From contig NZ_JAGKJJ010000001.1 of NCBI RefSeq assembly GCF_020329505.1, forward strand, positions 434,001 to 498,000: a DNA stretch of 64,000 bases, written 5' to 3'. The notes beneath the pieces are model-generated. The model saw only the letters and a program-made list of their open reading frames with translations. It did no database searches and was not told the DNA's origin. Positions 9,190 to 12,168 of this stretch are shown here, piece by piece. The position numbers were made by a program, and so were the translations under genes. Numbering within the stretch: the first letter of the stretch is position 1; each line of letters starts with the position of its first letter. The DNA comes from Bradyrhizobium semiaridum. Its GTDB lineage: Bacteria > Pseudomonadota > Alphaproteobacteria > Rhizobiales > Xanthobacteraceae.

Positions 9190-9271
9190 GGAATCAAAAA
9201 CCTCCGGCAGGGCATTGCCGGAGGTTTGGGAGGCTTAGCTGAAGCTAAGAGCCATCATTCAATTGTTGGCC
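9190..9271 (-). ncRNA. Candidate small RNA with anti-Shine-Dalgarno-like linker
   Basis: A predicted transcript of about 80 bases starts near 9271, just after a good promoter (9278-9306), and ends at a strong terminator (9198-9227). It contains a small hairpin (CTTAGC, loop, GCTAAG; plus-strand 9234-9249). A single-stranded CCUCCCAAA linker follows, then the terminator stem. A CCUCC run between two hairpins resembles anti-ribosome-site sRNAs of alphaproteobacteria. It also contains a seven-codon frame (AUG AUG GCU CUU AGC UUC AGC UAA), so a tiny peptide is an alternative. No protein gene is close downstream. Confidence 0.5.
9198..9227 (-). terminator. Rho-independent terminator of the candidate sRNA
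   Basis: AAACCTCCGGCA (9198-9209) pairs perfectly with TGCCGGAGGTTT (9216-9227) around a six-base loop. Read on the minus strand the stem is followed by a run of five T. It cannot serve the porin, which has its own terminator about 200 bases earlier. Confidence 0.8.
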
Positions 9272-9277
9272 GGAACC

Positions 9278-9306
9278 TATATAGTTTAGTAGATCAGCTA
9301 AGTAAA
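9278..9306 (-). promoter_or_regulatory. Sigma70-type promoter of the candidate sRNA
   Basis: On the minus strand the -10 region reads CTATAT, a full match to the rhizobial consensus CTTGAC-N17-CTATAT. The -35 region (ATTTAC) matches four of six positions at 17 bases spacing. In the classical register this is TTTACT (9301-9306) and TATATA (9278-9283), also 17 apart. Confidence 0.55.
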
Positions 9307-9422
9307 TAAGTTTGCGGCGAATGAATCGCATGGCACGTCTTCGTGATCGGCAGGAGGCGACGTTGTCGCAGCCGCATTTGCCGCTTTCTTCACCTGAGAA
9401 GAACCACGCCTCGCCAAAGAAA

Positions 9423-9448
9423 AACCCCGGCAGTTGCCTGCCGGGGTT
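9423..9448 (-). terminator. Rho-independent terminator of the porin gene
   Basis: AACCCCGGCAG (9423-9433) and CTGCCGGGGTT (9438-9448) form a perfect 11-pair stem with a TTGC loop. On the minus strand it is followed by TTTCTTT. It lies 31 bases after the porin stop codon. Confidence 0.88.
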
Positions 9449-9479: not shown

Positions 9480-11039
9480 TTACCAGTTGCGCTGCGCGCG
9501 CAGCAGCAGCATCACGGTGTTCTGATCCTTCAGCTCGTAGGTCGCGCTCGGCTTGCCGATCGAGCCAGCGGAGGTCGTGATCGTGCCAGCATACTTCTGA
9601 TCGAGCATGGTGTAGGTCACGTCCGCCGAGAAGGTGAGGTTCTTGACCGGGGTCCAGCGGGTGATCAAACCGAGCTGGGCAATGTTGTAGTCGGGGTTGC
9701 AGGTGGTCACGCCAGCGCCGCCACCGAAGGCAGTGCGGAACGAGCCACCGACGCCACCGACGCCACAGATGAGGGTCTTCGCCGTGTCGTTGTACATGAC
9801 CGCGGCATAAGCACCGTAGATGCTGGTGTTCCAGTAAGGATCCCAGTTGTGGGTGTACGCACCGCGCATACCCCAGGTCTTGACGGTCTGCTGCTGCGTG
9901 CCAGCCGCGAACACAGTGTCAGGCGCCGTGCCGAAGCCGACGCTGCCATAGGCAAACGGGAGGCTCGAGCCGCTGTAGATCGCGACCGCACCGGCCTGGT
10001 TGGCCAGGTCCTGGATGTTGTAGCGGGTCGCACCATCCGTGTAGACGCCCTGGACGTTGATCGTGTCGCCAGGTCCAGTCGGGATGTTCTTGATCGACAG
10101 GGCCAGCTGACCAGCCCAGCCCCACTTGTCGTCCGGATGACCGGTCAACTCGGTGGCGCCGTAGTAGGCAGCGTGGTTGTCATGCGCAGCGAACGACGCC
10201 TGGAACAGACCCCAGGCCTGCTCGACCTTGAGGGCTGCGACGAAGTCCGGCGAGATCGTGCCGGCATAGTCGCTGGCGCCGTAAGCACCACCGGCGCTGA
10301 GGTTGTTCACGCCAGCCTGGTAGTAGGCGGCCTGATCCTGAGCCGACAGCGAGAGCGACACGCCGTTGCCGAACTGCGCGGTGTAGGTGAACTGGTTGAC
10401 ACCAGTGACCGTGCCGCCGCCGCCGACGAGACCGTCGAAGTTGTTGCCGGGATAGTTGGTCCACGGAGCCGAGAACTGCGACACCGCCTTACCGATGGTG
10501 AAGCCGGCGAACTGGATGAAGGCGAAGTAGACGCCGACCGTGCCGTAGGAACCGTTGCCGGCGCCCGCGTTGTTCGGAGCCGAAGCCGGGGCAACCGTGC
10601 CGCCGCCGCCGAGCGGAGCGTAGACGGTCGCGCCGGGAGCCGCACCGTTCACGCCGTAATTGTCGGTGGTCCAGGTGAACACCGCATCGAAGTAGGTGCG
10701 GACCACGCCGTACTCGGTCGCGGTGCGCGTATCGATGTTCAGGTCTTCACGCGAACGCCAGGTGTAGCCGTTGGTGAAACGGTTGTTGGCGCCGCCAGGG
10801 CCGTTGTAGTTCGGACCGGCAACGCTGTTCGCGTTCGCGACGACGTCGACGCGCAGATAGCCGCCCAGCTTGATACAGGTGTCGGTGCCCGGGATGTAGT
10901 AGAAGCCGGGACCGTACAGGGAGCAGACCTTCACGTACTCGACCGCTTTGGCCTTGACGGGAAGATCAGCCGCCTGCGCTCCGCCGACCGCCATCAGAGC
11001 AGCCGCCGAGCCCAGGATAAGGCTCTTCACCAATTTCAT
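9480..11039 (-). CDS. Outer-membrane porin (Porin_2 family)
   Basis: The protein has 519 residues. ATG at 11039 has GGAGG seven bases upstream. The signal peptide MKLVKSLILGSAAALMAVGG ends with cleavage after AQA. The mature start ADLPVKAKAVEYVKVCSLYG, the paired cysteines (in KVCSLYG and TDTCIKLGG) and the C-terminal aromatic end RAQRNW are typical of rhizobial porins. It should form a trimeric beta-barrel channel for small hydrophilic solutes. Its extracellular loops are rich in G, A and P. Several paralogues per genome are usual in Bradyrhizobium. A MarR regulator is divergently placed, but a regulatory link is only a guess. Confidence 0.93.
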   Translation of the reverse strand: MKLVKSLILGSAAALMAVGGAQAADLPVKAKAVEYVKVCSLYGPGFYYIPGTDTCIKLGGYLRVDVVANANSVAGPNYNGPGGANNRFTNGYTWRSREDLNIDTRTATEYGVVRTYFDAVFTWTTDNYGVNGAAPGATVYAPLGGGGTVAPASAPNNAGAGNGSYGTVGVYFAFIQFAGFTIGKAVSQFSAPWTNYPGNNFDGLVGGGGTVTGVNQFTYTAQFGNGVSLSLSAQDQAAYYQAGVNNLSAGGAYGASDYAGTISPDFVAALKVEQAWGLFQASFAAHDNHAAYYGATELTGHPDDKWGWAGQLALSIKNIPTGPGDTINVQGVYTDGATRYNIQDLANQAGAVAIYSGSSLPFAYGSVGFGTAPDTVFAAGTQQQTVKTWGMRGAYTHNWDPYWNTSIYGAYAAVMYNDTAKTLICGVGGVGGSFRTAFGGGAGVTTCNPDYNIAQLGLITRWTPVKNLTFSADVTYTMLDQKYAGTITTSAGSIGKPSATYELKDQNTVMLLLRAQRNW

Positions 11040-11489
11040 ATTAAACCTCCAAGTTGCTCATATGCGGAGAGTCCGGACCGTTACCGCCCCGTGATCCCCC
11101 CGCACTGTCGCTGACCGCCGGGCCGCCTCGCCCCCCTCAAAAAAAACCGGGCCCGACAACCTGAAACGACCAACGCAACGGGACGATCGAGATTCCCCTA
11201 CCGCCGGGTTCAATATGCATTGCCCAATTCCCTAATCAAAATAGTTTATAAAGTCAGCTATACGAATGCTGCCACACTGTGTCTCACCAGCAACGCTGGC
11301 CCGCTAAGCCCCTTGGATGCACGAGCGAAAACTTGCCGCACCCGGAAAAGCCCCGCCGTCATACAGCCATCATAATTGCTTCAATGTCACTTGCGTTCGT
11401 AGGCGAGTTGCGAGAAGAATTTACCTACGCCGCGAGAGAAAAAAGAATCAAAGCAGCGCAAAGCTGCGTCGGCGAGAGGAGAGGAATTC
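11040..11489. other. Intergenic region, porin / marR divergent promoters
   Basis: The 450-base gap is markedly AT-richer than the flanking genes between about 11215 and 11280 and again before 11490. It must hold the promoters of both divergent genes. A GGAGG site near 11046-11050 serves the porin. No convincing ORF, RNA or repeat is visible in it. Confidence 0.6.
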
Positions 11490-12002
11490 GTGTCAGTGAC
11501 CAGGAAGGACGCGACGCGCCAACGCGCCACCGCAAATCTCGATATCATTAAACGCTTTACGCTTGAAATATCTTCCATCAACTCGCACCTCGAAGACGTG
11601 CGCCAGTTCTGGGGCAAGGCGCTCGGCGTCAGCGGCCCGCAATGGATGATCCTGATCGCCGTCTCCGATCTCGACAAGGATGACGGCGTGCCGATCAACG
11701 TCGTCTCGAAGGCGCTGCATGTCGATCCGTCGTTCGTCACCACGCAGTCCAAGCTGCTCGAGCAGAAGGAACTGCTGCGCCGCACGCCCTCCCCGGCCGA
11801 CGCGCGCGTGGTGCGGCTGTCGCTGACCGACAAGACAAGAAAGCATCTGGCGAGCCTCGCCGATCAGCACCAAGCCTTCCGCAAGACGGTGTTCGAGGAG
11901 TTCAGCGAAAAGGAGCTGGCCGAGTTCACCACCAAGCTCGCCACGCTCAATAGCCGTCTTCAGAAAGCCTGCCAGCGCGTCGCGCTGGATTTCAATTTTT
12001 AG
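11490..12002 (+). CDS. MarR-family winged-helix transcriptional regulator
   Basis: The protein has 170 residues and a GTG start at 11490, with AGGAG just upstream. The core WGKALGVSGPQWMILIAVSD, the recognition region VSKALHVDPSFVTTQSKLLE and the wing KELLRRTPSPADARVVRLSL form the MarR fold. A basic N-terminus and a C-terminal dimerisation helix flank it. MarR proteins usually bind palindromes near their own promoter and respond to small phenolic or oxidising ligands. The divergent porin is a possible target, but no clear operator was found. Confidence 0.88.
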   Translation: MSVTRKDATRQRATANLDIIKRFTLEISSINSHLEDVRQFWGKALGVSGPQWMILIAVSDLDKDDGVPINVVSKALHVDPSFVTTQSKLLEQKELLRRTPSPADARVVRLSLTDKTRKHLASLADQHQAFRKTVFEEFSEKELAEFTTKLATLNSRLQKACQRVALDFNF

Positions 12003-12090: not shown

Positions 12091-12168
12091 TGGTCGGAGC
12101 GAGAGGATTTGAACCTCCGACCCCTAGTCTCCCAGACTAGTGCGCTAACCGGGCTGCGCCACGCTCCG
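12091..12168 (-). tRNA. tRNA-Pro (anticodon GGG)
   Basis: Read on the minus strand, the acceptor stem CGGAGCG pairs with CGCTCCG, followed by the discriminator A and an encoded CCA. The D-arm is GCGCAGCCCGGTTAGCGC. The anticodon arm is CTAGT-CTGGGAG-ACTAG, giving anticodon GGG (proline). The T-arm contains GGTTCAAAT. All four stems pair well. It stands alone between the marR and merR genes. Confidence 0.97.

Follow-up and report, generated by a model that had tools for sequence, protein, structure and literature searches.

Does the short stretch behind a porin gene of Bradyrhizobium semiaridum form an RNA gene of its own and, if so, on which mRNA could such an RNA act? We analysed the locus within a window of 64,000 nt (assembly GCF_020329505.1, contig NZ_JAGKJJ010000001.1, positions 434,001-498,000 of the forward strand), and positions given below are those of the window unless another sequence is named. 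The features discussed are collected in Table 1.

Table 1. Features of the candidate sRNA locus and of the neighbouring genes in the window.
Feature	Position	Strand	Basis or remark
Candidate sRNA unit (promoter, RNA and terminator)	9307-9196	minus	
Candidate sRNA promoter: -35-like ATTTAC 9307-9302, 17-nt spacer, -10 CTATAT 9284-9279	9279-9307	minus	sequence and alignment
Predicted sRNA, about 78-80 nt	9196-9273	minus	5' end (about 9273) placed from the -10
Hairpin 1 (GGCCA...UGGCU)	9250-9271	minus	fold; column pair 20-36 changed on both sides in 14 rows
Hairpin 2 (CUUAGC-UUCA-GCUAAG)	9234-9249	minus	fold; column pair 42-57 changed on both sides in 3 rows
CCUCCC single-stranded linker, core of the predicted Shine-Dalgarno pairing	9228-9233	minus	sequence and fold
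Segment antisense to porin translation starts	9229-9253	minus	
GGCUCUU	9253-9247	minus	against AAGAGCC, porin codons 5-7
GCUAAGCCUCC	9239-9229	minus	against Shine-Dalgarno and spacer; AGCUUCA loop lies between GGCUCUU and this segment
Intrinsic terminator of the candidate sRNA, 12 pairs	9196-9227	minus	sequence
Upstream block CGAAGACG(A/T)GCYATGCGATTC	9323-9343	minus	alignment of relatives, copies of the window's group
Terminator of the neighbour porin (hairpin with T-run), lying between that gene and the candidate sRNA	9418-9448	minus	
Neighbour porin gene, Porin_2 (PF02530), 519 aa	9480-11039	minus	
Neighbour porin translation start, secondary predicted target: CUUGGAGGUUUAAUAUG...AAGAGCC	11021-11053	minus	
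Second occurrence of the sRNA promoter motif, in the promoter region of the neighbour porin: TAGCTGACTTTATAAACTAT	11235-11270	minus	
Gene of a MarR-family regulator, oriented divergently to the porin	11490-12002	plus	

A candidate sRNA gene downstream of a porin gene

An initial annotation of this DNA had proposed a minus-strand promoter with a full CTATAT -10 and a 17-base spacing, and both elements are found in the sequence at 9307-9279, together with a -35 that reads as weak. In the alignment, this promoter sits within a conserved motif, TTATTTACTTAcCTGAgTTACTaAGCTATATAG, and among the 143 copies for which 140 nt or more of upstream sequence is available, 102 carry the TTTACTYA motif. The terminator consists of the hairpin AAACCTCCGGCA/ATGCCC/TGCCGGAGGTTT at 9227-9198 and of a T-run ending at 9196, and its loop-closing pair is AU in 39 of 53 aligned rows and GC in 14. 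It had been placed about 80 bases past the promoter; hairpin and T-run were found as described, but, counted from the expected start site, the terminator begins after about 45 nt and ends after about 78 nt. The view that the unit stands apart from the porin also agrees with the sequence, since it has its own promoter and the porin's own terminator hairpin lies between them. Further upstream, the block at 9323-9343 of the minus strand (CGAAGACGAGCYATGCGATTC) is conserved in the window's group, yet it belongs neither to the promoter nor to the transcript, and it is perhaps a second regulator site.

A generic promoter and terminator scan flagged neither the sRNA promoter (0 found, 0.3 expected) nor the sRNA terminator. 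Its sole terminator match was the porin hairpin at 9423-9448, listed on the plus strand, with 1.2 matches expected by chance; read by eye, this hairpin would also terminate the porin on the minus strand, with the tail TTTTTCTTTG. The scan misses the sRNA promoter because its rule demands an E. coli-type -35, and it appears to miss the T-run because three U would pair into the stem. Therefore, the case for the unit rests on conservation and not on consensus matching and, on this comparative evidence, the unit is a predicted sRNA gene.

Conservation and distribution of the unit

A DNA search of 60 genomes retrieved the block from promoter to terminator in 28 of 36 genomes of the same genus (own genome included) and in none of 24 genomes outside the genus; conservation of promoter and terminator in close relatives, which the initial annotation had named as a test, was therefore observed. 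When up to one mismatch was allowed, the terminator signature was present in 194 of 265 genomes of the genus (own included) and absent at that threshold from the other 71, and a reversed control pattern gave no match. The own genome holds a single copy of the sRNA, even at three mismatches. With strict filters, a covariance model trained on 53 copies extended the distribution to the family, in which 158 of 391 genomes, from 15 of 47 genera, gave a match. In named genomes at least 118 loci were obtained, and among the matches listed the labels are nearly all Bradyrhizobium, Rhodopseudomonas or Afipia. In an order-wide sample of 297 genomes, of which two only came from the family's other genera, the pattern occurred in six genomes, all of the own genus.

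For the counts of gene context given below, 13 of 146 copies were dropped as duplicates of the 94-nt segment or as lying too close to the end of their locus, leaving 133 distinct copies; L028 and L030, which do not have the exact core, were also dropped. One locus (L145, JAUEPE010000055.1) is labelled Frankia sp. RB7 and carries a typical Bradyrhizobium MarR-porin-sRNA arrangement, and its label or its assembly is probably wrong.

Structure of the predicted RNA

The predicted RNA folds at -34.5 kcal/mol (z -5.07), a value equalled by none of 200 shuffles. The opposite strand also folds well (z -4.29) and, because an inverted repeat must fold on both strands, fold energy alone cannot pick the strand; this choice is settled by the promoter, the T-run and the conservation. 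One hairpin had been described ahead of a single-stranded linker. The hairpin at 9249-9234 and the CCTCCC at 9233-9228 are indeed there, but according to the fold two hairpins precede the terminator. CCTCC precedes the terminator in 52 of 53 aligned rows.

In the alignment of 53 copies, 95.8% of the helix cells of hairpins 1 and 2 are paired. Changes on both sides affect 17 cells (6.2 in shuffles), and covariation scores 0.152 (0.121 in shuffles); neither value was reached by any of 500 shuffles. Two further measures are unexceptional, namely the double-change pairs (2, matched by 109 of 500 shuffles) and the pair types (8, matched by 494 of 500), and the kinship of the sequences inflates counts of this sort. 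Invariance of the terminator within the set of exact-pattern copies is no evidence, because the pattern used to collect this set itself fixes part of the terminator. Judged by these comparisons of sequences, the unit is under selection as an RNA.

Linkage to a porin gene and to a MarR-family gene

For 117 distinct copies, 900 nt or more of upstream sequence is in view, and 116 of these are preceded by a porin gene of the same orientation; 16 shorter copies are omitted from this count. A looser count, which judged 128 of the 133 distinct copies and took in short ones only if a porin was visible, gave a porin upstream in 127 of 128, with 37-647 nt from the end of the porin match to the terminator. 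The only judged exact copy that has no upstream porin (L060, 4899-4927, a metagenome-assembled genome labelled Hyphomicrobiales bacterium) is preceded by a 185-aa ORF on the opposite strand.

A covariance search for conserved copies next to porin genes had been suggested as a check, and it bore the suggestion out: 16 of 20 model matches in other genera lie directly behind a porin. In three more of these 20 the porin is about 2.2 kb upstream, with a TPR-like ORF of about 660 aa in between in two of them, and the last one has a TPR-like ORF of about 660 aa upstream and no porin in view. Four loci (L216, L219, L223 and L232) form a subtype, with CCACCGG...CCGGTGG in three of the four and a distance of about 2.2 kb behind the porin in three cases; L216, L219 and L223 have an ORF of about 660-700 aa just upstream that resembles a TPR protein by reading alone.

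Where the upstream view reached 3.2 kb or more (62 distinct copies), a divergent MarR-family gene was found upstream of the porin, within 3.3 kb, in 60, and at the USDA 110 locus a MarR gene is likewise divergent upstream of the porin. Judged by this position, it is likely but unproven that the MarR protein regulates both the porin and the sRNA. Just past the MarR gene of the window lies a tRNA gene (12094-12168, minus strand; Rfam RF00005).

Resemblance of the sRNA promoter to that of the adjoining porin

The window carries TAGCTGACTTTATAAACTAT upstream of the porin and TAGCTGATCTACTAAACTAT at the sRNA promoter, identical at 16 of 20 bases. A matrix derived from the sRNA promoters placed its best second site no more than 400 nt ahead of the neighbour porin, often at about -230, in 43 of 44 loci; the test used only those 44, which had both a site and sequence of sufficient length. 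Column-shuffled matrices gave 27, 11, 8, 13 and 11 of 44 loci and, therefore, AT-rich upstream DNA explains part of the signal. In the four genomes in which a distal porin was also scored, the best score upstream of the neighbour ranged from -1.7 to 3.8, at -231 to -237, while upstream of the distal porin it ranged from -14.9 to -30.2 (4/4 genomes). Since the sRNA promoter resembles that of the adjacent porin, both are probably under the same control.

Complementarity to porin translation starts

The RNA ahead of the terminator reads GGCUCUUAGCUUCAGCUAAGCCUCCC, and its reverse complement corresponds to a porin start, that is GGAGG, a spacer, UGAAG and then UAAGAGCC. Duplexes computed between the sRNA and its neighbour porin (78 distinct pairs) averaged -27.4 kcal/mol, versus -18.0 kcal/mol with dinucleotide-shuffled sRNAs, and for 64 of the 78 pairs at most 5 of 100 shuffles were equally good. 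Pairing involved the Shine-Dalgarno region (-13 to -4) in 72-97% of pairs, the start codon in 50-83% and the AAGAGCC of codons 5-7 (+12 to +18, the A of AUG being 0) in 67-85%. Forms outside the window's group mostly have no GGCUCUU. The CCUCCC had been described as an anti-ribosome-site linker. It is unpaired and forms the core of the predicted Shine-Dalgarno pairing, but a general role of this kind is not its best reading: the linker sits in the middle of a longer stretch that is antisense to porin translation starts.

Within its locus the own porin ranked first in only 48 of 71 cases, and of 360 other genes in the vicinity, whose starts are mechanical guesses and not annotated genes, 40 pair as well as the own porin. 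In a ranking of 916 candidate ORFs, likewise with mechanically guessed starts and covering part of the own genome, one unrelated ORF outscores the distal porin, which is entered twice because two of the stretches overlap, and the neighbour porin comes tenth in the list. The start pattern TTGGAGGNTTN{0,6}ATG has five matches in the 6.7-Mb own genome, two of which are its two full porins, and in four other genomes 7 of the 8 matches to its ATGA version are porin starts. A preference of the sRNA for its own neighbour over the porins of other loci was absent (720 of 2000 permutations were as good), and therefore no co-evolution of sRNA and neighbour porin is claimed.

Preference for a distal porin paralogue

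In its own genome, in USDA 110 and in two other genomes, the sRNA pairs better with the start of a distal porin, GGAGGUUUAACAUGAAGnUGGUUAAGAGCC (general form GGAGGUUUAACAUGAAG(U/A)UGGUUAAGAGCC), than with that of the neighbour, with distal/neighbour duplex energies of -38.9/-36.0, -38.7/-32.6, -41.1/-32.3 and -39.0/-32.6, respectively. In USDA 110 the two starts lie at about 5,633,064 (distal) and about 5,528,808 (neighbour), both on the minus strand. The distal duplex was also the stronger one in 20 of 20 further genomes, hence in 24 of 24; this comparison covers forms of the window's group, and the 20 genomes are related and hold 17 distinct sRNAs, 14 neighbour starts and 4 distal starts. 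In these 20 genomes, the conserved distal orthologue taken alone wins 20/20, with a mean advantage of 6.28 kcal/mol, and the best distal porin likewise wins 20/20 by duplex energy. Shuffled sRNAs gave an advantage of 0.06 (standard deviation of set means 0.74, maximum 1.88) and favoured the distal porin in 9.9 of 20 genomes on average and in at most 15. Four of 44 distal porin regions have no recognisable start.

When both partners were folded (two-strand fold), the distal porin won in 23 of 24 genomes (3/4 and 20/20, the latter with two window sizes). In one genome, G020, the two-strand fold favours the neighbour (-16.3, versus -12.1 for the distal porin). Across the 20 genomes, the means for distal versus neighbour were -14.4 versus -9.8 or -13.3 versus -6.6, depending on window size. 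Over all the two-strand folds, the net gain is smaller than by duplex energy, at -2.6 to -19.5 kcal/mol.

Relation to known sRNAs

At the gathering score, Rfam release 15 recognised only a tRNA in the window, so that the sRNA matches none of its families, among which we take AbcR/suhB, MicF and BjrC to be included. Relaxing the threshold gave 19 weak matches; 18 of them fall at the porin terminator or close to it, and the remaining one (10.9 bits, E 2.9) covers the sRNA stretch but on the opposite strand.

In E. coli and Salmonella, the MicF sRNA gene is linked to one porin gene, from which it diverges, is controlled by OmpR, and its product pairs with the translation start of another porin. 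The sRNA of the window is similarly linked to one porin (116/117 copies) and complementary to the translation start of another, and it is probably co-regulated with the linked one, given the promoter motif shared in 43/44 loci and absent from the distal porin in 4/4. Unlike MicF, it lies downstream of its porin and in the same direction, has a MarR-family neighbour, belongs to a different bacterial class, and bears its antisense internally, against the Shine-Dalgarno, the AUG and codons 5-7. Homology to MicF was rejected, with no match at the Rfam gathering score and the pattern in 6 of 297 genomes of the own order, the order searched. By analogy, the sRNA would be MicF-like in action; it is no recognisable homologue of MicF and appears to have arisen separately.

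The initial annotation had compared the arrangement with anti-Shine-Dalgarno sRNAs of alphaproteobacteria. According to the excerpts used of PMC10746234 and PMC7143759, the alpha-r14 cuckoo RNAs, with NfeR1, are alphaproteobacterial sRNAs that have three hairpins, each with an unpaired CCUCCUCCC, and pair with translation starts through such anti-Shine-Dalgarno stretches. The comparison holds for the unpaired anti-Shine-Dalgarno stretch but not for membership in the cuckoo group: none of 107 aligned rows, representing 99 distinct loci, contains CCUCCUCCC, and the window sRNA has two hairpins plus a terminator and an extended, porin-directed antisense. AbcR1 and AbcR2 also aim unpaired CU-rich anti-Shine-Dalgarno motifs at ribosome-binding sites, in their case those of transport and metabolic mRNAs, and form a tandem pair of 114-120 nt (excerpts of PMC7143759), whereas the window sRNA is single-copy, about 80 nt long and has no Rfam match at the gathering score.

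BjsR1-BjsR10 of B. japonicum USDA 110 resemble the window sRNA in being intergenic sRNAs of Bradyrhizobium, and most of them have start sites of their own (excerpts of PMC5082802). Their published coordinates were read in G080, taken as USDA 110. The copy of our sRNA in USDA 110 has its terminator at 5,527,037-5,527,009 (minus strand), which is no BjsR position listed in the excerpted text of PMC5082802, and identity with one of them was rejected, the best BLAST match to the BjsR stretches having an E of 0.78. Within this set, the Northern-verified BjsR1 (L210, G080:C1:1133500-1135500; start 1,134,665, minus strand) has the 5' end UUUUGCUUAAACCUCCCAAG, which by eye also looks antisense to porin starts, of the CUUGG-AGGUUUAAGCA type, and BjsR1 may be a second porin-directed RNA. 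In the partial texts that our literature search covered, no porin-directed sRNA was recognised in the Bradyrhizobium lineage. A start site for the window sRNA may already stand in the USDA 110 table of PMC4842269, where it would be expected near 5,527,087 on the minus strand.

Proposed mechanism and alternative readings

The unit, its conservation, porin linkage, structure and complementarity, the distal preference and the shared promoter motif were computed here, and from them we infer transcription, repression, mRNA decay, a regulator and a physiological cue. The reading that we hold to be probable is that of a trans-acting, porin-silencing sRNA, made together with the neighbour porin and silencing the distal paralogue preferentially, the neighbour being a weaker target. 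The neighbour porin and the sRNA would be co-produced, perhaps under the divergent MarR protein. The RNA of about 80 nt would pair with the porin mRNA at the Shine-Dalgarno through its CCUCC linker and flank, while its hairpin loop would cover the region of the start codon and GGCUCUU codons 5-7. On the distal porin mRNA this duplex would block ribosome binding and end translation, and mRNA decay would probably follow the pairing. With the neighbour porin on, the sRNA would turn the other porin off.

The strongest competitor is a feedback in which the RNA mainly represses the adjoining porin, as an incoherent feed-forward, and its match to the distal porin is a by-product of conserved porin starts. 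The constant linkage, the clear pairing with the neighbour porin and the two-strand fold of G020 speak for it, as do the Rhodopseudomonas elements situated in the porin 3' end, with a terminator 37-46 nt on, where feedback by an sRNA derived from the 3' UTR would be natural. We nevertheless consider it unlikely, though with a real chance of being right: the distal advantage in 24/24 duplexes and 23/24 two-strand folds arises at positions where the two starts are not the same (UUAAGAGCC, AACAUGAAG).

Silencing of the distal porin must also be weighed against a regulator of wide reach that would bind the Shine-Dalgarno of many transport mRNAs, like the cuckoo (alpha-r14) or AbcR RNAs; the unpaired CCUCC and the equally good pairing of 40/360 background genes speak for it. 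Because the antisense extends to codons 5-7, we reject this as the main explanation and find it improbable. The conservation reaches well past CCUCC to match porin codons, the longer start signature occurs for the most part at porins across five genomes (2/5 in the own, 7/8 in four others), and CCUCCUCCC is missing from all 107 rows. It is very improbable that the stretch is no regulator at all, being a back-up second terminator or a neutral inverted repeat behind the porin, even though the generic scan flags neither of its ends, since the promoter, two upstream helices and the target-matching segment are all conserved and the porin already has its own terminator hairpin. Hardly any weight is left for a tiny coding RNA, raised initially because of a seven-codon AUG frame (MMALSFS) that is present in the window, as just 13 of the 53 aligned copies contain ATGATGG, and the reading frame that follows is not conserved, varying in length and sequence.

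Origin and significance

The distance between the porin and the terminator bears on where the preferred porin-silencing sRNA may have come from. In 116 of 127 copies the terminator lies 147-647 nt behind the porin, in three Bradyrhizobium copies 86-92 nt, and in eight Rhodopseudomonas loci (L035, L079, L103, L113, L117, L122, L138 and L148) 37-46 nt, eight other Rhodopseudomonas copies being 304-381 nt away. No separate promoter of the layout described fits into the forms at 37-46 nt and, therefore, the element lies there within the porin 3' UTR. This suggests a passage from a 3' UTR to a free gene, with the direction unproven. Somewhat short of an even bet, we propose a family of porin-switch RNAs of the Bradyrhizobium, Rhodopseudomonas and Afipia lineage that would have evolved from the porin's own 3' end; in Bradyrhizobium it would have become a free gene whose promoter was copied from that of the porin and whose body is in effect an inverted porin translation start, tuned to the paralogue and not to the neighbour.

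Porins determine what passes the outer membrane in soil bacteria and nodule symbionts. If the proposed silencing is true, the locus would provide a MicF-like porin switch, of separate origin in Alphaproteobacteria, with a predicted target and predicted bases, in a lineage whose model strain, USDA 110, already has start-site data. If the proposed origin is true as well, it would present a staged origin of MicF-like regulation, reached independently in Alphaproteobacteria, along a suggested route from the 3' end of a porin gene to an independent gene for a trans-acting sRNA.
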